Positions 1 through 30,571 of a stretch of 64,000 nucleotides of DNA are shown here, in pieces (the stretch's first letter is position 1; each line of letters begins with the position of its first letter). The notes under the pieces were generated by a model. It was not told where the DNA came from and did no database searches. It saw only the letters and a program-made list of their open reading frames with translations. This stretch comes from Amia ocellicauda (Eukaryota; Chordata; Actinopteri; Amiiformes; Amiidae), in the NCBI RefSeq assembly GCF_036373705.1, contig NC_089866.1, positions 20,374,501-20,438,500 on the forward strand, written 5' to 3'. The translations under genes were made by a program, and so were the position numbers.

Positions 1-935
1 TGACCTGGAGTGTATTCGATAAGGAGATCTTTTAAGTAGGGAGGTGCCAGTCCCTTTAGTGCTTTAAATGCTAGTAAGAGAACTTTAAAATCTATTCTGT
101 AGCGCACAGGCAGCCAGTGAAGAGAAGCCAATACTAGAGTGATGTAGTCATGTTTTTTGTTTTAGTTCTGAACTAACTGAAGTGCAGAAAAAGCTCTGTT
201 TGTGCTGCCTGACAGAATGGCATTGCAATAATCAAATCTAGATGGAACAAATGCGTGTATCAATTTCTCACTGTCATTTAATGAGAGGAATTGTCTCAGT
301 CTAGCAATGTTTCTAAGCTGGAGGAAGGAAGATCTCGACACATTCTGAATGTGTAATTCAAAGGATTGATTATGATCACAGATGACATGCAGGTTTCATG
401 ACATCTCTATAGGGGAGAAATTAAAGTTATCATTACTCAGTTTTTCAGTGTATGATGAACAGTTAGATTTTTGTCCCCTAAAATTAGGACTTCTGTTTTA
501 ACAGAATTAAGCATAAGAAAATTACTTGTCAAACAAGTTTTAATCTCAGACAGACAGCAGATTAGTTTTTCTATGTCTATGGTATTGTTAGGATTTACTG
601 ACAGATATAATTGTGTGTCATCTGCGTAACTGTGAAAATTAATATTATGTTGTTGAATGATATCATATATGATAAGGGAGCATGTACAGTGAAAACAGTA
701 TGGGTCCGAGGACTGAGCCCTGAGGTACTCCGTATTTGAGTGTTTTTCATTAATCTGTACATATTGGAGTCTGTTTGACAGATATGATTTAAACCAGCAT
801 AGAACATTGTTAGACAGGCCAACAAGGTTTTCTAAGCGGCGTATCAAGATTTGGTGTTCAATTGTGTCAAAAGCCGCACTTAAGTCTAGTAAAATAATAA
901 CAGTGGTGTGCCCTAAGTCGGAGGACTGAAACACG
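1..935 (-). mobile_element. L2/CR1-type LINE reverse-transcriptase remnant
   Basis: Read on the minus strand, this encodes the second half of a non-LTR retrotransposon ORF2. An open stretch at 437-934 holds the finger/palm block LLDLSAAFDTIEH and the catalytic YADD box (SYADDTQLYL). Further downstream, about 300-130, the translation gives FDYCNAILSG, and about 120-10 gives LHWLPVRYRIDFKVL; both are typical of the C-terminal part of L2/Rex/CR1-like fish LINEs. Frames are broken between these blocks, so the copy is dead. Its 3' end runs off the left edge of the window. The exact clade (L2 versus Rex1/CR1) cannot be settled by eye. Confidence 0.85.
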
Positions 936-1054
936 TGGCTGGGGCAGAAGCAGAAGATTTAAATTTTTCATAAAGATGTTTATCAGTTAAAAAAGCTTGC
1001 AACTGGTTTGCAGCTACTTTCTCTAGAACCTTAGAAAGGAAAGGAGGTCTGAAA

Positions 1055-1885
1055 TATGGCACAACTGTGAATCTGCCTAGACCAGGACATCCTCAAAAAG
1101 TGAGTATCTGGGCAAAAAGGGCTCAGGGAGGCCACCAAGAGGCCTATGGCAACTCTAAAGGAGTTACAGTCTTCCACGGTTGAGCTGGGAGACACTGTGC
1201 ATACTGCAACAATAGCCCGGGTGCTTCACAAAAGTGGCCTTTATGGGAGACCCACATAAAAACTAACACAAATCTTGACAAAAGTTTGCCAGAAGGCATG
1301 TGGGAGACTCTGGGATCAAGTGGAAGAAGATTCAATGGTCTGATGAGACCAAAATAGAGCATTTTGGCCTCAACACTAAGAGCTATGTTTTGCGCAAGCC
1401 TAAAACCGCACATCATCCTGAGAACACCATCCCTACCATGAAGCATGGTGGTGGTAGCATCATGCTCTGGGGATGTTTCTCTGCATCAGGGCCTGGAAAC
1501 CTTGTAAAGTTAGAGGACAAAATAAATGCAGCAAAGTACAGAGAAATCCTAGAAGAAAACCTGCTGAAGTCTGCAAGAGACCTGGGACTTGGGAGAAGAT
1601 TAACCTTCCAGCAGGACAGTGCCCCCAAACATACAGCCAAAGCCACACTGGAGTGGCCCAGTCAAAGCCTGGACCTCAATCCCATTGAGAATATGTGGAA
1701 AGAGTTGAAAATTCAACTTGATGGATCTTGAGCAATTTTGCTAATAATAATGTGCAAAAATAAGCCGGTGTCCAGAAAAGCTGGTAGAGACTTATCCACA
1801 TAGACTCATGGCTGTAATTGCTGCCAAAGGTGCCTCTACCAAATATTGACTGAAGTGGGTGATTACTTATGCATTCAATTATATT
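1055..1885 (+). mobile_element. Degenerate Tc1-like transposon (plus strand)
   Basis: This is a truncated Tc1/mariner copy. The translation at 1300-1731 contains WSDETKIEHF (first catalytic Asp), [24 protein letters not shown] (second Asp) and [15 protein letters not shown] (the Glu of the DD34E triad). The region just upstream, 1055-1290, still resembles the transposase N-terminal half but is frameshifted. Between the second Asp and the Glu, residues are missing (TLEWPSQSLDL follows directly), so the enzyme cannot be functional. The 3' end near 1830-1880 has the usual Tc1 non-coding tail (ATTGCTGCCAAAGGTGCC, then GTGATTACTTATGCATTCAA). Confidence 0.85.
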
Positions 1886-2223
1886 GCCCAAGGGATATTC
1901 AAGGACCTTTCTATACTTTGCTCCATTCATTTTCCCTTCTATCCTGACAAGTGCCCCAGTCTCTGCCGATGGGAAATATCCCCATAACATGATGCTGCCA
2001 CCACCATGCTTCACAGTAGGGATGGTGTTCTTTGGCTGATGTGCTGTGTTGTGTTTGTCCCAAAAACCAGACCACAAAACTTTTTGCACAGTCTTGGTTA
2101 TAAAAACCTGTAGCTCTTGCATAGTTGCCATTGACGTCTTGGTAGCCTCTCTGATCAGTATCCTTTAGTATAATTCAGTTTGGAGGTATGGCCAAATCTA
2201 GGCAGGGTCTAGGTGGTGCCATA
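1886..2223 (-). mobile_element. Older Tc1-like fossil, part 1 (minus strand, interrupted)
   Basis: The minus-strand translation shows transposase pieces: [35 protein letters not shown] and [16 protein letters not shown]. It is a different Tc1 subfamily from the neighbour at 1055-1885. The copy stops at the TA target of the intact element that begins at 2224, and text like that of the same fish Tc1 consensus resumes at 3446. The two parts are best read as one old element split by a younger insertion. Confidence 0.75.
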
Positions 2224-3445
2224 TACACTCACCTAAAGGATTATTAGGAACACCTGTTCAATTTCTCATTAATGCAATTATCTAACCAACCAATCACATG
2301 GCAGTTGCTTCAATGCATTTAGGGGTGTGGTCCTGGTCAAGACAATCTCCTGAACTCCAAACTGAATGTCTGAATGGGAAAGAAAGGTGATTTAAGCAAT
2401 TTTGAGCATGGCATGGTTGTTGGTGCCAGACGGGCCGGTCTGAGTATTTCACAATCTGCTCAGTTACTGGGATTTTCACGCACAACCATTTCTAGGGTTT
2501 ACAAAGAATGGTGTAAAAAGGGAAAAACATCCAGTATGCGGCAGTCCTGTGGGCGAAAATGCCTTGTTGATGCTGGAGGTCAGAGGAGAATGGGCCTGAT
2601 TCAAGCTGATAGAAGAGCAACTTTGACTGAAATAACCACTCGTTACAACCGAGGTATGCAGCAAAGCATTTGTGAAGCCACAACACGTACAACCTTGAGG
2701 CGGATGGGCTACAACAGCAGAAGACCCCACCGGGTACCACTCATCTCCACTACAAACAGGAAAAAGAGGCTACAATTTGCACAAGCTCACCAAAATTGGA
2801 CAGTTGAAGACTGGAAAAATGTTGCCTGGTCTGATGAGTCTCGATTTCTGTTGAGACATTCAGATGCTAGAGTCAGAATTTGGCGTAAACAGAATGAGAA
2901 CATGGATCCATCATGCCTTGTTACCACTGTGCAGGCTGGTGGTGGTGGTGTAATGGTGTGGGGGATGTTTTCTTGGCACACTTTAGGCCCCTTAGTGCCA
3001 ATTGGGCATCGTTTAAATGCCACGGCCTACCTGAGCATTGTTTCTGACCATGTCCATCCCTTTATGACCACCATGTACCCATCCTCTGATGGCTACGTCC
3101 AGCAGGATAATGCACCATGTCACAAAGGTGGAATCATTTCAAATTGGTTTCTTGAACATGACAATGAGTTCACTGTACTAAACTGGCCCCCACAGTCACC
3201 AGATCTCAACCCAATAGAGCATCTTTGGGATGTGGTGGAACGGGAGCTTCGTGCCCTGGATGTGCATCCCACAAATCTCCATCAACTGCAAGATGCTATC
3301 CTATCAATATGGGCCAACATTTCTAAAGAATGCTTTCAGCACCTTGTTGAATCAATGCCACGTAGAATTAAGGCAGTTCTGAAGGCGAAAGGGGGTCAAA
3401 CACAGTATTAGTATGGTGTTCCTAATAATCCTTTAGGTGAGTGTA
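2224..3445 (+). mobile_element. Intact Tc1-like DNA transposon with perfect terminal inverted repeats
   Basis: The element is 1222 bp including TA at both ends. The left repeat (2224-2254) and right repeat (3415-3445) are perfect 31-bp inverted copies; the inner sequence begins CACTCACCTAAAGGATTATT. Flanking TA dinucleotides are the target-site duplication expected for Tc1/mariner. One uninterrupted transposase gene lies inside. Short simple inverted repeats, perfect ends and an open reading frame all point to a young copy. It sits inside an older minus-strand Tc1-like copy. The family resembles one I recall as shared between lampreys and many fishes, for which horizontal transfer has been proposed; that is memory, not tested here. 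Confidence 0.95.
2374..3411 (+). CDS. Tc1-like transposase, full length (345 aa)
   Basis: This single-exon transposase cuts and pastes the surrounding transposon. The N-terminal paired-type helix-turn-helix domain (about residues 5-60) contains AGLSISQSAQLLGFSRTTIS. A second DNA-binding region follows, with TTRTTLRRMGYNSRRP at about 105-120. The DDE catalytic core carries all three acidic residues: Asp in VAWSDESRF (about 153), Asp in [10 protein letters not shown] (about 245) and Glu in PDLNPIEHLWD (about 280). The last two are about 34 residues apart, which defines DD34E. Total length of about 340 aa is normal for the family. The start ATG at 2374 is the first in frame after the left repeat, and the stop at 3409-3411 lies just before the right repeat. 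No frameshift or internal stop is present, so the enzyme may be active. Confidence 0.95.
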   Translation: MGKKGDLSNFEHGMVVGARRAGLSISQSAQLLGFSRTTISRVYKEWCKKGKTSSMRQSCGRKCLVDAGGQRRMGLIQADRRATLTEITTRYNRGMQQSICEATTRTTLRRMGYNSRRPHRVPLISTTNRKKRLQFAQAHQNWTVEDWKNVAWSDESRFLLRHSDARVRIWRKQNENMDPSCLVTTVQAGGGGVMVWGMFSWHTLGPLVPIGHRLNATAYLSIVSDHVHPFMTTMYPSSDGYVQQDNAPCHKGGIISNWFLEHDNEFTVLNWPPQSPDLNPIEHLWDVVERELRALDVHPTNLHQLQDAILSIWANISKECFQHLVESMPRRIKAVLKAKGGQTQY

Positions 3446-4680: not shown

Positions 4681-5024
4681 GTTTTTATTTGCCAATCATT
4701 AATGGCCAAACAGTGGGAAAATAAATGAATGCAGTGGTGAATCCATATTTGTTCTTACAATATACAGTATATAGTATTTTTAATGTGAATAACAATACAA
4801 TGAGCATGTGCACGTGGCAGTGTTCTCCAGTATCTACATTTCTCTGTTTCTTATAGTCTGTATAAATATGTTTTAAAATATATAGGAATAAATAAACATA
4901 AACTAACAAACAAAAATCAATAATCAGACTAGGAGATGGGAAAATGCAAAACAAACATTATGTAAATGTATTAGTGTGCTACAAACTCCAGAAATTATAT
5001 ATATATATAATATATATAAATATG

Positions 5025-5042
5025 TAAATAAATAAATAAATA
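5025..5042 (-). promoter_or_regulatory. AU-rich element in 3' untranslated region of the cytokine gene
   Basis: On the minus strand this reads as four overlapping ATTTA pentamers (TATTTATTTATTTATTTA). It starts about 160 nt after the cytokine stop codon at 5201. Such clustered AUUUA pentamers are the class II instability signals of short-lived cytokine mRNAs. The stretch borders a tetranucleotide microsatellite, so it may partly be a by-product of repeat drift. Confidence 0.45.
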
Positions 5043-5200: not shown

Positions 5201-6853
5201 TCATTTTAAGTTGCACAGCCACTGTATGAGCAGTTTAATCACTTTATAACCAAGAACTTTCTTGTCCCAGGTGTTCGTGCATACCTTTATCTGAACATTC
5301 TGACAAGCTTTGGGTTCGGTGTTTAATTTTTCCATTACTTTTTTGATAGCGTTAAAATTCTGAAGAAGCTCCAGCTCAGGACTGAGCTCCTGCAGGCTGT
5401 CCTTGATAGCATTGAGGTATCTGTTGAACACACAGATAGTCCTGTCCTTCGCTGTGGTATTTAGTGTAAGTCCTGCCACCTGTAAATCACTGTCCGGAAA
5501 GACAGCAAAGTTGACCTGTGTCTGGAAAAATATATATATATATATATGCACATATTATTACTACATAACAAAGACGACAACAACAATAATCATAACAATA
5601 ATAATGTTTTTAGTATTTATTTCTTGTAAAAAAGAAGAAGAAGATTAATAAATTGTATATTTACAGGTGACGTTTGGTTAAACAGATGAACCACACATAT
5701 TCACTGTCCAATGTTAATGTTAGGTTGTGTATGTATACTTTCTTGCATTGTTCTGCAATTGTTTCATTTTTTTAAGTATGCTTTTTGGTTGGTTTGTTTA
5801 TTTATTTTTTACCAACTCATGAGCTATATTTGGAGTTTGTGTTAAATACAAGATATTAACAACAGGTGGATAGAAACTCTATTTCTACTTACATACATCT
5901 CCAGTAAATCTTCAGCCACTGAAATAGTAATATTTATATCCCTTTTTGAGAAGTGTGTGACAGATGCAGAGAAGGGAAGACACAATGACAGAACCAGCAG
6001 ATATACCCCTGCACAGAGAGAACAAATGTATACGGGTTATACATACATTTTGCATTACCACAGTGTCATTTTGTTTTAAGTTAATTGTAATAAAATGTTG
6101 CCACAATGTTGTTTGGTTAGGGGCAGTCCCCAATGCTCTGAAAGACTGCCAAAACCCAGTTAAAAGGTATAAACTGTAAAGTGATGTTAAGAATTTGTTT
6201 TCAAAAGAATAACTAATCTAAAGAGTAGAAAAAAGTACTTAACATAACTATATAAGAAAAAATGTAAGTAAGGAAGTATACTTATTATTGTGTGGGAGGC
6301 GGTGACCATTTTTAACAATGTATCCTGTCATGAACTAACCCAATTTATGACATTTTTCACACTTTAAGGAGTTAAATTACCAAAGGAAACCATATCTTTG
6401 AGTATCAGCTCAGTATATCAATGTGTGTGGGTACAGTATCTAATGATTAAGCCAATTGCAAGTTGTGTTTTGTTTCAGATGTGAGTTTAGATGTAGAAAA
6501 CCATGAGAGAAATGGTTTAACACCTTTGTCTACAGATACTAAGTGAGCAACAGTTTGGTATTTGGGGTTAAGGTGAAAGATTAAACTGAAAAAGAATAAC
6601 ACTAATTCCTTTCAAAACACTAGAGTGGCTTTTCAATAGCTTTGAACTACAGCCAGTTTGACAAAAGGAAAAAAATGTCAATTAAACAAGACAATGGAGA
6701 TTTTTTTTTTCCTTCAAAGAAAATCTGTTCTGTATTAAGAAAAAGTAAAATAATACACATGATAATATATATTAACATACATACAGTCATACACACATAT
6801 GTATATATGGGTGTGTTTAAAGTGGCAGAATTCTTACCTGTTGTATGGTCCAT
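5201..6853 (-). CDS. il31: Secreted four-helix cytokine, candidate fish interleukin-31
   Basis: The gene has three exons on the minus strand: 6838-6853 (16 nt), 5893-6008 (116 nt) and 5521-5201 (321 nt with stop). All introns are GT-AG with phases 1 and 0, and the joined frame is 150 aa. It starts MDHTTGVYLL and has a hydrophobic signal peptide to about residue 20. Helix A is about 30-46, helix B about 70-90, helix C about 93-110 and helix D about 127-149 (ending VIKLLIQWLCNL). The mature chain has four Cys (74, 117, 125, 147) and N-glycosylation sites at Asn31 and Asn65. A tiny first exon plus two larger exons is the layout of LIF/OSM/IL31-type cytokines. RYLNAIKDSL (78-87) resembles AYLKTIRQLD of human IL31. 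The gene lies head-to-head with LRRC43, as IL31 does in mammals. The family call rests on synteny and architecture, because overall identity is low. Other IL-6-family members remain possible. Confidence 0.65.
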
Positions 6854-6924: not shown

Positions 6925-6932
6925 TATTTATA
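6925..6932 (-). promoter_or_regulatory. TATA box of the cytokine gene
   Basis: The minus strand reads TATAAATA about 75 nt upstream of the start codon at 6853. This spacing leaves a short 5' untranslated region, typical of inducible cytokine genes. No competing TATA-like sequence is closer. Confidence 0.5.
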
Positions 6933-6971: not shown

Positions 6972-7860
6972 AAGTGTTTTTTCCTTATTTTTTGAAAATT
7001 ATTCATGAATAAACCAGTAAACCATAGCTATTATATATCTGCCCACAATCAAACTTTCCTCTTAGCAGCATCGGTAATATGTAGATAATATCACAGATTC
7101 TAGGTCTAATGACGTTTGACACTAACAGAATAATGAGAATTTCACATTTTTGGTTTATTGAAGTAAAGAGCATTCTTTTTGGGGAGTTCCTCAATGAAAG
7201 AATACATTATTTCAGATGAATGTGATCATAATTTCCAGCAGTAATCCTAACTTCCCCTCCCCCAATAGATGATTGTGCACATTCTCTATCTGCTATGTTG
7301 GAGTGGAGTACTCTTAAAAAGTAGCAGGCTAAACAAATTAAACCATTCAAAAGTTTGCTGATAGTGCCTTTATCCAATTGAATTAGATTTAATAAAATAT
7401 AAAATTAAAATTAAAATTATTAATATTACTAACCAAAACAAAATGAGAAGTTACAAATGTGTTTAAAAACAAATCCTTTACCAATATAATCTTGCCCGAG
7501 ACATTGTACCTTTCATTACCACCCATTGATGCCGCCGAAATCTGCAGGAGCCATACAGTTTAAAAGCAGGACAATAAAGTAAGACATTTGGTTTAAAAGA
7601 TGCCTGCCTTGCCCATTGTTAGGATTTTGCTCCATTTGGCAACCTCAAATAACCTGAAATAAATTCTAACATTCCAAACTCTAACTCTAGATCTACATTT
7701 TTGCGATTATGTTGCCAGTTTAGTGATGTGGTGGATTATGTTACATATTACGGTAAAAACTATGTGATTTGTCACTAGTGATGGGTTAGTAGCCAATACT
7801 GCCATTGAAACCCTGCATACAGAAGTCATAGTCTGCCTTTCATTCACAGCTCCTTCCCAG
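6972..7860. other. Intergenic region between divergent cytokine gene and LRRC43
   Basis: The two start codons are 1.17 kb apart on opposite strands. Apart from the promoter-proximal sites listed separately, the stretch is AT-rich and shows no ORF with recognisable content. Confidence 0.6.
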
Positions 7861-8024: not shown

Positions 8025-11000
8025 ATGAGCTCATCCACTGTTTCTACTGCTTTTGAAGAGCAGCTCCGGACTTTGTGTTTGAAGGATTTTCCTTGTGGAC
8101 TTGTAAACTGGGTAAGCTGTCAAACATTTACTGAGAATGCATTGAAGCGTGTGATATGCTTTGTGTGCCAACGTTTTGCTCTGGTCTTGTTCTGGTACGA
8201 GGCAAACAGCGATCCAGAGAGGGGGAGCAGCTCGGGGCGCAGAGGGCAGGAGAAAGCCCAGTGGGAGGCCGGGAGGGAGGATCCGGAGGCCCTGATCGAG
8301 TACCTAAACAGTAACCTGTCACCATGGAAAATGGAGGCGCTCTGGAGCCCGCAGGCAGGTGGACTGAGGGAGCTGGCTGTGAGGAGTCCGGGCTGTATCC
8401 ACTGGGACTTCGTCTTCGCTTACTTTACAACACTGCGCATTGTGGACAAGGGAGTGAGTGCTGGGGCTCTTATTCTTATGTCTTCATTGTTATTATTATT
8501 GGCATTTGTTTTTAATCCAAATATGTCCACTTTGAGCATTGGTCTCCTATGCAAACAAGATGTCCTGCACAAGGTGGTCCCACTTAAAGCATCATATTAA
8601 TAAAACAGTCACCTCCCTGCTGAATGCAGGCAATACTGAGAGTCTAAGAGCTGCGCAAGTGTGCAGCGTGTGTGATGACGTACGTGTTGCAGGTGTCGGC
8701 TGTGGACGCTGGTCTGCTCAGGTTCGTCAATCTGGAGGAGCTCATACTGAGCGCAAACCGCATCTGCGACATAGACTCACATCACCTGCCCAGGACACTG
8801 AAGGTGAGGGTTTTCATGAACATGTAGCACTGCCTCTCATTTGACATACTGCATTAACCGTCAATCAATCAATCAAGTTAGTGATCAGTTTATATTATGA
8901 CGTGATAAACACATTGGAAACGTTCGCTAAAGCTAAAACAAAAAAGACGACAGTTATGTTTCCTATATTTATGTTTATCTCAGCACTGCAGAATGACCTG
9001 GTAGGGATTTTGAGATATCTTTTCTATTAAAGCTTATTTGAATGTGTCATGCTGATGAGGTGGAAAGGCGGTGCGGTGTGGAGGGGATACACAGCAGGAG
9101 GAAGCGAGGGGCAGGGCAGTCTGCTCACTGTCTGTGCTCCGCCTGTATCGCGGTGCCTACAAATTCATAATTTATTTTTTTATAATAACGTTTTAGTTCT
9201 CACTATTTGGAAACCCCGGCGAATGATCATACCAATGATTTTGCGGCAGCACGTACGTCAGTGATTCACTCCTCTGTCTCAGCAGAAGTGTCACTCATAG
9301 GATGATGAATATCATTATTATTGATAATAAAACTAATCATGTTTCTGGTCAGGTGCTTGAGCTGTGTGCCAATGCGATCTCCAGTATGAGCGGCCTCTGC
9401 AGTGACCCCCCTCCCGGGTTGCAGCACCTGGGTCTGGGCTACAGCAAGCTCTCGTCCCCCGCGGATTACAGATGCCTCACAGCAGCCTTCTGGTTAGTTG
9501 GAGACTGCTGGGTGGTTTTCACATAGTGGAGCTTGTTGGTTGACAGTTGACACTATAGGCGGGAATGTCTATGAGCTTTTCATCTCTGCTTACACTGAGT
9601 GGCGGTGTAATTCCCGAAGTGGCCAATAGGCGGAGACAGAAACTTGCCAATTGAAGTTTCATGGTTTCCACTTACTGTACCACGTTTTCAGTTTCTCTGA
9701 TATCACTTATATTGCACCTGGTCACTGCCAAACAAATGCATAGCCTTCTCTATCTGGACAGTGCGAGAAATAAAAACAAGACCAACACTATTGTGGGTTT
9801 CTATATACAAATAAACACAAAATTGCACTTCCTGAAAACCCAAACAGCAGGCAAGTCTGTGGCAGTGTTCTAGACATGTGTTCAGATAACCCCTTCTCAA
9901 TTCTTTTCCCTTATCTTTGCAGGCCCAGGTTGGTCTCTCTGGATCTGAGCTTCTCTGGGTTTGTGGAGCAGCTGGGCCTGCTGGACGCTCTCGCCACCCT
10001 GCCCTGCCTCCGGAGCCTGGTGCTGCAGGGGAGCCCGCTCACCCTCACCCCCTCCTACCCCGGCTTCACCCTGGACAACCTGCCTCGCCTCACCTTCCTG
10101 GATGATGTTCGCATCTCCCCTGATGACCGGCACTGCTTCTCTGGACTGGCCAGGAGGAGAGGTGAGTGTGCAGCTCTCATTAGTAATGCTCTTATAAACT
10201 GCCCTCACTGCCCTGACTGGGTTATTATTACTGGAAGGCCATGACACCCTGAGGATGCTACCCAGAACATTGTCATTGTAACTACTATGCAAACTTTCAA
10301 GCATTATCACGCATTTATATTTTAAAGACCTTGACATGTTTGTTTTTCTTTGTGGTTCCATTTGCATTTCAACACTTAGTTCACCCTTTTTCAAAATCTT
10401 GATTGTTGACCTTTCTTAATCATCACACATTGCTGGTGTGAGTTTAAGAAGACTCTTAGTCTAGTAGACTGCAGCCTGGGCACTCTGCCATGGATTTTTA
10501 TTTGACCTACTACATTTGCACAGGTGTGATATATTAACAGCCTAGATATTTGCACATTTGTATTAAAGGGGCACAGTCTTGTTGGAACGGTTGGCAGTAG
10601 TGACCCTTTAAAGGAACTAGTCTCGGGTGGTCAACATGTTAAGACACCCAAGCTAGTGCTGTATTTCTGGACGAGGCACCTGCTTCCTAAATTTTGGCAA
10701 TAGAGCAATGATGTCAGTCTTGCTTTCTTCTTATCACTGTTAATGTGTATTTGTTTATTTGGCCACTTCCAACCCTGGGTATGCATCCCAGGCCAGAGTT
10801 GGAATGAAAACAGTGTGTACGATTCCAGCAGGGTGGCTTACTGTTTTCACAAGAAACCTGTGCAAAGCTTAACAAAGCAGAATAAATGCAATCAGGGCAC
10901 AACACAATAAGCATGTTGTACAGTGCAAATTAGCTTAAACAAGTACAGAACATAATAGGGTCCCCTCCCTGGTGTGTGCCTAGGGTGAGGCCAGGCAGAA

Positions 11001-22560: not shown

Positions 22561-22777
22561 CATTCAGGTTTGTTTGAGTTCTAATTGTCAATCCATCCAG
22601 GGCATTTTTGCTTTGACTTGCCTACTATCAAGGTGAAGGTGATTTTAGGTCTGTCTCTACTCTTTATGTAATGTCTTCTCATGGTATTATGGTGCTGTGA
22701 AATGCTAATGGAACTAACAGTATTGGTTACATCTAATGGACTGATAATTCCATGTTGCTGTTTTCTCTTCCAGAGTC

Positions 22778-23917
22778 ATGAGGACCCTCTATATATCTCG
22801 AAGAGCACGCTTGTCTGCCTGGACAGTCCTCTTGATTTCAGGGTTTTGCATCCTAGTCATGAGTGTACAATTCAACTTCACTGTGGTACCAGCATCAACA
22901 GATGGAACGCAGAAACAGATTTTTAGATTTTGGAGACATAGCTCTCCTGCAAACCCTGCCAGTGCAGCATCGCAGCCCCCGGACATCAATTTCAAATGCG
23001 AGGGAAATGTCAGCAACCAAGACATCCCAGAAAATCTCCCTGAAAGCCACCGCGAGTTCCTAAAATACAAACACTGTCGCAGATTCCTTACTCTGAAGAA
23101 GCCCAAGAAGTGTGAGGACAACCTTCGCCTCTTGCTGGCAATCAAATCGACCGCCATTAATGTGGACCGGAGAGCAGCCATCAGGAACACATGGGGCAAA
23201 GAGGTGGTCATCAGGGGGAAGAAGGTCAAGCTTGTGTTTCTTGTTGGCCAATCGTCAGATACAGTCAAAGGCAAGCCCCTCCACCAGCTCCTGTCGTATG
23301 AAAGTAGGGAATTTGGAGACATCCTACAGTGGGACTTCGTGGACAACTTCTTTAACCTAACCCTAAAGGAGATCCATTTTCTATCGTGGTTCAGCCAAGA
23401 GTGCCAGAGCGCAGAGTTTGTGCTGAAGGGGGACGATGATGTCTTTGTAAACACAGGAAACATTGTGGAGTACATCCGGGATTTCAGTCCCGAGGCCCAC
23501 CTTTTCGTTGGCGATGTCATTTTTTCAGCCTTTCCCATCAGAAACGACAAAGTCAAGTACTATATACCCACGGAAATGTACTCTGCAAAGCACTATCCGC
23601 CGTACGCAGGTGGTGGAGGGTATGTCATGTCCAGGAAGACTGTGATAAGTTTAGATCGTGCTGCGCAAGACATTGATCTTTTCCCCATCGATGATGTCTT
23701 TGTCGGGATGTGCCTCGAGAAGTTGAACGTGACTCTGGTTTTCCACCACGGCTTCAAAACCTTCGGCATCAAGAACCACGTCAACCCCTTCGACCCATGC
23801 ATATACAAGGAGCTGATGATTGTTCACAAACTGAATCCCACAGAGATGTGGATCATGTGGACTTTAGTGAATGATGAAGACATGAAATGTGCCAGGAATA
23901 TAGTGGTGAAGGGCTGA
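22778..23917 (+). CDS. b3gnt4: UDP-GlcNAc:betaGal beta-1,3-N-acetylglucosaminyltransferase, B3GNT4-type
   Basis: This is a 379-aa single-coding-exon type II Golgi membrane enzyme that adds GlcNAc in beta-1,3 linkage to galactose and so extends poly-N-acetyllactosamine chains. A short cytoplasmic tail precedes one membrane span (about residues 12-31), then a stem, then the GT31 catalytic domain. Hallmarks are LLLAIKS and [10 protein letters not shown] (about 115-145), the metal-binding DDD at 219-221 in [18 protein letters not shown] (about 276-284) and [10 protein letters not shown] (about 304). A single coding exon and this length are usual for B3GNT2/4-type genes. The ATG lies 4 bp after a splice acceptor. 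Assignment to B3GNT4 among the paralogues rests on the position next to LRRC43. Confidence 0.9.
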
Positions 23918-29017: not shown

Positions 29018-30571
29018 CTACCCCCCCAGTTCACTCAGCCCGGCTCTGCTCAGCTGCCCCCCACCCCGCAGCGCCTCGAGCCGCTCCCGCGCGGCCTGCT
29101 GCACCCTCGCGCCCTCCTCGGGGAACCGCGCGAGCAGCTTCCTGTAGCCGCGCGCGGGCAGGCGGTACACGCGGCAGGGCGTCAGCGCCGTCACAGTGGC
29201 GCCGCGCCGCCCGCCGGACAGCAGGCACAGCTCCCCGAAGAAAGCGCCGTCGCCCAGCGTGTGCCTGAAGTCCGCCGCCTCCACCAGCACCGTCCCTCTC
29301 TGGAGGAAGTACGCGCACTGTCCGACGGCGCCCTTCCGCTGGATCACGTCTCCCGTGTGATACATCTCCGACTGCAGCTCCGCCAGCAGCGCGGAGAGGA
29401 AGAGCGGCTCTGCGTCTCGAAAGAAGGCCGCGCCGGACACCAGGGTCTCGCAGTTGTGGGCGATGACGGCCTGTCGGAGCGGCTCCGAGAGATCCTTGAG
29501 GATCGCGTCCTCGTCGAACCACTTCCCGCGGTGCGTGTTCTCCAGGTGCTCCAGGACGCGGCCGCGGAGCTGGTTGGGCAGGTGATGGTGGCGCAGGTAC
29601 TCCTTCAGCTCGTTGTGCTTCCGATCAAACATCCGCTCGCTGGTCCCGGACTCTGTGGACAGCGCGATCATTTTCGCCAGGATCAGCGCGTACATAACGG
29701 AGCCCACCAGCATGCTCACGATCACCACCCAGATCTCAGCGGTCGCTTTCGGGACCCCTCTCGACCCATAATTCAGGGTCATGATGTGGCACAGGGCCCG
29801 AAACATCGCCTTCGTGTACTGGCGGCTGATCGGCTGGTCGATTAATCCGTCCAGAGCCACCCAGGTGTTGCCCTCGAAGCCCATCAGATCCGCCGCCAGG
29901 AACTGGAAACAGGCATTCCAGTGGCAGATGACGAAGATGAGCAGCAGGGCGAAGACGGAGCGCAGGACCACGTCGATCCCGCCGACGTCCCAGCCGTGCG
30001 TTTCCTCCCAGTAGCGGGCGTAGCGCAGCAGCCGAGACAGGCGCAATAAGCGCAACAAGGCGAACAGCCGCATCAGCTTCATCATGCGCACTATGCGCAC
30101 GCCGCTGTATCCGGCTGCGGAAGGTGCGAGGGCCCCCACAGCTCTGCTGATCAGAAAGCAGTAGTCCACGGGCATCACTGCGAGCAGATCCACGATGAAC
30201 CACGACTTAAGGTAGCGATTGCGGATGAGCCTCAGATCCAGAACTACCACGTCCTCTTCGTTGGTGTAGCCGGTCCGGAAACTCAAAGCCAGGTCCAAGA
30301 TGAAGATGCAGTCGGCGATGACATTGAAGACGATCCACGCCGTGCTCTCCTGCACTGTGTCCGTGAAGAAGCTGACGCCCAGCGGGGTCATCACCACATT
30401 GACCACCGTGGCCAGGAGCATCAGCATGAGCCAGCCTTTCCGGAATGACCCGTGCGGGTGGATGACGAACTGCTTCTTCCTCTCAGCCATTTCAGCTCGG
30501 ACTGTGACCTCGTCCTCGATGGTGATCCTGACGTCGCCTGTTTCCATCCGATGCGCGTCGCTGGACTTCAT
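29018..30571 (-). CDS. hcnl1: Intronless HCN-like (HCNL1-type) cyclic-nucleotide-binding channel
   Basis: This is a 517-aa uninterrupted channel. Membrane spans: S1 about 46-68, S2 77-97, S3 121-142, S4 157-184 (many Arg/Lys, ending LLRLLRLSRLLRY as in HCN channels), S5 201-222, pore helix 254-266, S6 281-304. A C-linker and a cyclic-nucleotide-binding domain (about 388-485) follow, with cassette GAFFGELCLLSGGRRGATV retaining the Gly-Glu and Arg. The HCN filter CIGYG is replaced by TLNYG (265-269). True HCN genes have several introns and are longer; this one is compact and intronless. It best fits the fish HCNL1 group, whose zebrafish member was reported as a sperm proton channel conducting through its voltage sensor. 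The gene is strongly GC- and CpG-rich, unlike its surroundings. Orthology to HCNL1 is inferred, not searched. Confidence 0.82.
   Translation of the reverse strand: MKSSDAHRMETGDVRITIEDEVTVRAEMAERKKQFVIHPHGSFRKGWLMLMLLATVVNVVMTPLGVSFFTDTVQESTAWIVFNVIADCIFILDLALSFRTGYTNEEDVVVLDLRLIRNRYLKSWFIVDLLAVMPVDYCFLISRAVGALAPSAAGYSGVRIVRMMKLMRLFALLRLLRLSRLLRYARYWEETHGWDVGGIDVVLRSVFALLLIFVICHWNACFQFLAADLMGFEGNTWVALDGLIDQPISRQYTKAMFRALCHIMTLNYGSRGVPKATAEIWVVIVSMLVGSVMYALILAKMIALSTESGTSERMFDRKHNELKEYLRHHHLPNQLRGRVLEHLENTHRGKWFDEDAILKDLSEPLRQAVIAHNCETLVSGAAFFRDAEPLFLSALLAELQSEMYHTGDVIQRKGAVGQCAYFLQRGTVLVEAADFRHTLGDGAFFGELCLLSGGRRGATVTALTPCRVYRLPARGYRKLLARFPEEGARVQQAARERLEALRGGGQLSRAGLSELGG

Follow-up and report, generated by a model that had tools for sequence, protein, structure and literature searches.

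The candidate gene and its neighbourhood

The candidate gene lies within the analysed stretch of 64,000 nucleotides, referred to here as the window and located at C23:20374501-20438500; it consists of three minus-strand exons (6853-6838, 6008-5893 and 5521-5201) that, as read from the letters, encode a product of 150 aa. The features of the gene and of its neighbours, in window coordinates, are:

6838..6853, minus strand: coding exon 1, 16 nt (MDHTT plus one base), ATG at 6853, GTAAG donor, phase 1
5893..6008, minus strand: coding exon 2, 116 nt, AG acceptor, signal peptide and predicted helix A, ends LLEMY at a phase-0 GTAAG donor
5201..5521, minus strand: coding exon 3, remaining 106 residues, WDKKVLGYKV at the predicted helix D start, TGA stop at 5203-5201
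5017..5041, minus strand: overlapping ATTTA run, AU-rich-element-like, in the candidate 3' flank and inside a simple repeat
4684..4689, minus strand: AATAAA, 512 nt past the candidate stop
6925..6932, minus strand: TATAAATA-like box, about 72-79 bp upstream of the candidate ATG, by eye
8025..10244, plus strand: start of the putative LRRC43 (first ATG and leucine-rich-repeat exon), head-to-head with the candidate, sub-threshold leucine-rich-repeat match
22748..23917, plus strand: B3GNT4-like glycosyltransferase ORF, Galactosyl_T 159.4 bits
38283..44428, minus strand: VPS33A exons, match to a VPS33A protein query

The gene structure is as described in the sequence-only reading, i.e., three exons with a tiny first exon and a 150-aa product, with clean splice borders (AG/GT) in phases 1 and 0 and a predicted hydrophobic signal peptide. 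The cysteines are residues 15, 74, 117, 125 and 147. Within 500 nt, the candidate 3' flank holds 10 ATTTA motifs, some of which fall in the simple repeat; as many or more occur in 0.08% of 1270 window stretches. Codon bias is no discriminator, as the score of exon 3 is equalled or exceeded by 21 of 115 null ORFs. Upstream, at 7071 on the minus strand, there is a possible alternative start, an ATG exon (MLLRGKFDW...) that joins exon 2 in frame.

When the window and 18 further loci are scanned blindly for such a gene structure, 3 of 198 overlapping 4-kb stretch-strands match, and these are the candidate and two copies of the K genes described below. A looser scan of 318 kb on both strands gives eight start codons: two belong to the candidate, one each to K1, K2, K3 and a LIF/OSM-type gene (gene A), and two are apparently spurious. 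The looser scan missed a second LIF/OSM-type gene (gene B).

The gene order on contig C23 is BCL7A-MLXIP-candidate-LRRC43-B3GNT4-VPS33A-CLIP1, where the candidate lies between MLXIP and LRRC43, on the minus strand relative to the latter. BCL7A (C23:20301156-20303607), MLXIP, VPS33A and CLIP1 were located with protein queries; CLIP1 is represented by two CAP-Gly matches right of the window. The MLXIP match, near C23:20323278-20324392, was obtained with an MLXIPL query, and because of the neighbouring genes it is probably MLXIP rather than this paralogue. We take the head-to-head neighbour at 8025..10244 to be LRRC43 and the Galactosyl_T ORF at 22748..23917 to be B3GNT4.

The head-to-head LRRC43 followed by B3GNT4, VPS33A and CLIP1, which had been proposed from the letters, is found, with LRRC43 identified weakly. 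The proposed likeness to the neighbourhood of IL31, the itch cytokine of mammals, also holds and extends to MLXIP and BCL7A on the other side. Except for DIABLO, order and strands presumably equal those of the mammalian IL31 slot at human 12q24.31; a protein query gave no DIABLO in the searched C23 stretch around the candidate. The candidate is a real cytokine-like gene in this slot.

Two other elements are seen in the window. Between B3GNT4 and VPS33A, at 29021-30571 on the minus strand, there is an intronless 517-aa ORF with ion-channel and cyclic-nucleotide-binding domains (HCN/CNG-like), which is not known to be part of the human gene order at this place. To the left of the candidate (437-3411), there are ORFs that, by eye, resemble a reverse transcriptase (437-958) and Tc1-like transposases (1279-3411).

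The stretch between MLXIP and the candidate also contains three tandem three-exon genes for secreted proteins, K3, K2 and K1 (C23:20345798-20366358), on the strand of the candidate. They are a second type of secreted-protein gene with candidate-like architecture and are new here. K1 encodes 180 aa and K3 190 aa, with a 16-nt phase-1 exon 1, a 146-nt exon 2 carrying the signal peptide and a long exon 3, and K2 has a decayed look. Genome-wide, the K genes are unique to this gap: six of seven matches are here and the remaining one has E 4.3. Between K1 and K3, exon 2 is identical (146/146 nt) and 91-94% of the aligned intron bases agree, whereas exon 3 has diverged strongly (dN 0.31, dS 0.47), a pattern that points to recombination or to diversification of exon 3. 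As the K genes occupy the same gap, position alone does not single out the candidate.

Similarity to the LIF, CNTF and IL31 cytokines

The Pfam search of the candidate gives no match, including none to LIF_OSM or CNTF and no IL31 at E <= 10. The Pfam IL31 model PF15209 has 0 matches in the candidate's own genome, and control genomes also gave none. No PDB sequence matches the candidate. In a database of 5.8 billion proteins, none of 15 candidates is found at E <= 10, a silence that carries little weight since the database is presumed to be poor in vertebrate proteins. Two weak matches to the candidate elsewhere on its chromosome (E 0.8 and 2.3) were rejected as chance; one includes a stop codon and has a kringle-like exon nearby, and the other has no visible gene-like context.

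Local profiles, all built without the candidate, reveal a weak similarity. The IL31 profile consists of human, mouse and one further mammalian sequence and the group profile of seven LIF/OSM/CNTF-type sequences. The candidate scores 11.9 bits on the IL31 profile (reached by 0/5000 and 1/2000 shuffles and by 0/497 ORFs), 13.4 bits on the group profile (0/2000 and 1/5000 shuffles, 0/497 ORFs), 13.5 bits on a CNTF/CLCF1/CTF1 profile (0/5000 shuffles, 1/2000 in another run) and 10.1 bits on a human-only group profile (1/5000 shuffles). A LIF/OSM profile including the genome's own genes gives 2.6 bits and 271/5000 shuffles, which is not significant. The alignments are in register, from helix A to helix D in two pieces on the group profile and from helix A to the helix D start on the IL31 profile. 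The stretch RYLNAIK, earlier singled out as the best match to human IL31, is placed by the profile alignment on the same IL31 columns (yLkkir).

K1 and K3 serve as a negative control for this match. On the IL31 profile they score -0.4 and -0.7 bits (217/2000 and 317/2000 shuffles), and against the candidate itself 376/1000 and 233/1000 shuffles reach their scores. On the IL31, LIF and CNTF profiles the K genes score at most 2.7 bits, with a single nominal match, K3 on LIF/OSM (16/2000 shuffles), and they match no Pfam family and no PDB chain.

Ten other human cytokines were used as a control of specificity. G-CSF scores above the candidate on both the group profile (13.7) and its human-only version (18.8), and IL-11, at 12.7, is just under it on the CNTF profile, while the best of the ten on the IL31 profile is IL3 with 9.1 bits. 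Leave-one-out tests give true members of the group 29-69 bits versus 6.5-12.8 for the candidate, and true IL31s 69-134 bits versus 3.1-4.9 (two-sequence IL31 profiles). True members thus score far higher, and the similarity of the candidate is at twilight level; judged by sequence, membership in the IL31 family is not established. The profile-profile comparison that had been proposed as a check gives P 9e-6 for the group, with a probability of no more than 63.5%, and P 0.0024 for IL31, with no more than 4.9%. On the group profile, the IL31s of mammals themselves get scores close to zero, and the candidate could therefore be a bridge between IL31 and the group.

Pairwise, the candidate was compared with eight cytokines. 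The best of the eight are CTF1 (score reached by 1/2000 shuffles) and CNTF (12/2000), both at helix D, followed by the third mammalian IL31 (53), CLCF1 (247) and LIF (272), each out of 2000. The low identity to human IL31 that had been stated earlier is borne out, as this comparison is at chance (498/2000), as is that with mouse IL31 (395/2000); for OSM the count is 1152/2000.

The matches to CTF1 and CNTF lie at the corner where helix D is predicted to start. Here WDKKVLGYKVIKLLIQW of the candidate aligns with FEKKLWGLKVLQELSQW of CNTF, and CTF1 aligns likewise. When the corner is removed, the scores are 9.9 bits for the group (1/2000 shuffles), 6.2 bits for IL31 (22/2000) and 1.2 bits for CNTF (82/2000). 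The IL31 profile columns at the WDKK corner read DTHECK/DTFECK, in which we take the lysine, K134 in human IL31, to be the one at the OSMR-contact corner. Two of the three IL31 cysteines (LPC and HEC/FEC) face non-cysteines in the candidate and the third is beyond the aligned part. WDKK aligns with the FXXK motif, with W replacing F, and by sequence resembles this receptor-contact motif. For OSM, a passage of PMC8355150 describes the FXXK motif at the helix D corner as indispensable for binding to LIFR and OSMR/gp130.

The same genome contains a LIF/OSM-type pair, found with PF01291. Genes A and B at C23:17.94 Mb score 29.1 and 27.3 bits, above the cut-off, and one additional sub-threshold match is on C4. 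Gene A exceeds the Pfam cut-offs of LIF_OSM and CNTF alike and gene B that of LIF_OSM; neither of these searches of the genome hits the candidate. On the same chromosome, 2.4 Mb separate the pair from the candidate. In genes A and B, exon 2 closes with LLRTY and LLETY at a phase-0 donor, and in the candidate with LLEMY, so the LIF/OSM/IL31-group architecture claimed in the sequence-only reading agrees with the genome's own LIF/OSM-type genes in exon 2 end and phase. The modelled exons 1-2 of gene A, the first of them putative, are 16 and 116 nt, the same as in the candidate; for gene B no first exon was found. In mammals, we take this group to have three coding exons, with a short phase-1 first exon and a phase-0 second intron after helix A. 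Neither gene A nor gene B is significantly similar to the candidate (861/2000 and 158/2000 shuffles). As a side observation, the tandem pair (C23:17919277-17949568) lies beside CASTOR1, and SF3A1 was not found near it.

Compared with known systems, the candidate shares with mammalian IL31 (PF15209; PDB 22pl, 9uk5) the genomic slot, a similar small size (150 aa versus 164 aa in human), an in-register profile alignment from helix A to the helix D start and a lysine at the OSMR-contact corner. It differs in having no Pfam match, two of three cysteines unaligned and a pairwise identity at chance. With CNTF, CTF1 and CLCF1 it shares the helix D start (WDKKVLGYKV versus FEKKLWGLKV), the strongest single-sequence matches (CNTF/CTF1) and the match to the CNTF/CLCF1/CTF1 profile. 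However, these proteins are about 200-225 aa long in the sequences compared, the candidate has no Pfam CNTF match, and they presumably occupy another genomic slot; CNTF and CTF1 have no classical signal peptide, whereas the candidate is predicted to have one. As to LIF/OSM (M17 in fish), the genome's own pair has a candidate-like exon 2 end and phase-0 intron and is on the same chromosome. However, these own genes pass the Pfam LIF_OSM model, which the candidate does not, and its LIF/OSM profile score is not significant.

Receptor genes and the published record

On contig C8, il6st is found on the plus strand at 42154945-42163344, followed by two gp130-like receptors (R1 and R2) with WSXWS motifs on the minus strand, near 42168359-42171273 and 42193430-42199290, and, after both, ddx4/vasa on the minus strand at 42207130-42209953. 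By human gene order, we take the place between il6st and ddx4 to be the IL31RA slot. IL31RA partners had been named as something to look for, and this slot holds the two gp130-like receptors. Across C8:42140001-42220000 the two receptors are convergent with il6st. Upstream of R2 there is a weak extra Ig-domain match of 20.6 bits, below cut-off.

The name GLMR, used in part of the literature, presumably refers to IL31RA. In zebrafish, a passage of PMC1963337 reports osmr, states that GLMR was not found and calls it tetrapod-specific. According to a passage of PMC9222667, spotted gar, striped catfish and cavefish have il31ra and il6st next to vasa, whereas a pufferfish and two groupers have lost both genes. 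An IL31RA/IL6ST duplication is part of an account that, in an excerpt of PMC12162339, traces these genes to cartilaginous fish.

For the ligand, an excerpt of PMC4929537 (2016) states that IL-31 'is unknown in fish to date', in line with the earlier remark that no accepted IL31 was known to its author in ray-finned fish. According to a passage of PMC8226699, 'IL31 first appeared in rodents' and IL31R 'first appeared in lampreys', and an excerpt of PMC13203501 describes IL31 sequences gathered across animals. Among the matches listed in the open-access literature, no title or abstract opening names an IL31 ligand of ray-finned fish.

Origin of the candidate and rival explanations

We suggest that the candidate, in what would be a holostean fish, probably corresponds by position to mammalian IL31, and that its product is a small, secreted helical cytokine of class I that belongs with LIF, CNTF and IL31. 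This is supported as the best explanation by the gene structure, the position, the in-register similarity to the IL31 and CNTF/CT-1 profiles and the receptors in the IL31RA slot. The IL31 identity proposed in the sequence-only reading is partly supported: the position, the receptor slot and the in-register profile speak for it, while Pfam, the pairwise comparisons and the cysteine pattern speak against it and the K genes share the gap. With a gene that faintly resembles IL31 and its relatives in this slot, next to three K copies, the locus may already have existed before land vertebrates arose.

The candidate could also be a LIF/CNTF-group class I cytokine that is not an IL31 orthologue, i.e., a LIF/OSM- or cardiotrophin-type duplicate that arrived independently in the gap, with the true IL31 counterpart lost. 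The best single matches, to CTF1 and CNTF, the slightly higher score of the CNTF/CLCF1/CTF1 profile compared with the IL31 profile, and the LIF/OSM-type genes 2.4 Mb away all fit such an origin. However, it needs a chance landing between the genes that flank IL31, the own LIF/OSM genes are not the nearest relatives by score, and the IL31 profile score is reached by 0/5000 shuffles; we consider this origin rather unlikely. It is distinctly unlikely that the K genes are the IL31 counterpart instead, or that both gene types are co-orthologues that diverged past recognition after a tandem duplication. K1-K3 do lie in the same gap, on the same strand and nowhere else in the genome, and have a 16-nt first exon and the same phases, but K1 and K3 match neither the IL31 profile nor the candidate, and the match of K3 to the LIF/OSM profile (2.7 bits, 16/2000) is nominal only.

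That the candidate is no cytokine at all, being an unrelated small secreted protein or a non-coding coincidence, would agree with the missing homologue in Pfam, the protein database and PDB and with the uninformative codon bias. This appears highly improbable, as the architecture is rare in the scans, where the other gene-like matches are K1-K3 and a LIF/OSM-type gene, and two profiles built without the candidate each give 0/5000 shuffles.

As the counterpart of IL31, the candidate protein would be secreted by immune cells and fold as a four-helix bundle. Its receptor could be one of the two gp130-like proteins encoded beside il6st (R1 or R2), while the WDKK corner at the helix D start might recruit a chain of the OSMR/LIFR type, and receptor engagement would then activate JAK-STAT. 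If the IL31 assignment is true, a holostean ligand in the matching slot closes the gap between the late IL31 ligand and its early receptor, the fish il31ra genes gain a ligand partner, and a bridge is obtained between IL31 and the CNTF/cardiotrophin group.

It can be speculated, tentatively and with somewhat less than even confidence, that the MLXIP-LRRC43 interval of this holostean is an ancient two-ligand cluster. It would comprise an IL31 counterpart, whose CNTF/cardiotrophin-like corner links IL31 to the LIFR-binding cytokines, and the undescribed, fast-changing K family, both maybe serving the tandem gp130-like receptors. If both ligands serve the receptors beside il6st, the IL31 system would therefore predate the split between ray-finned and lobe-finned fishes. 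One idea, taken from the BCL7A and BCL7C neighbourhoods, is that IL31 and CTF1 may be sisters from a whole-genome duplication.

As regards the genome itself (988 Mb), a Hox13 homeodomain query gives 25 matches. Of these, 24 fall on the contigs C3, C7, C10 and C22, and each of the four carries one strong Hox13 with 83-97% identity. With four Hox13 genes, no teleost whole-genome duplication is seen, and the genome is therefore taken as non-teleost.
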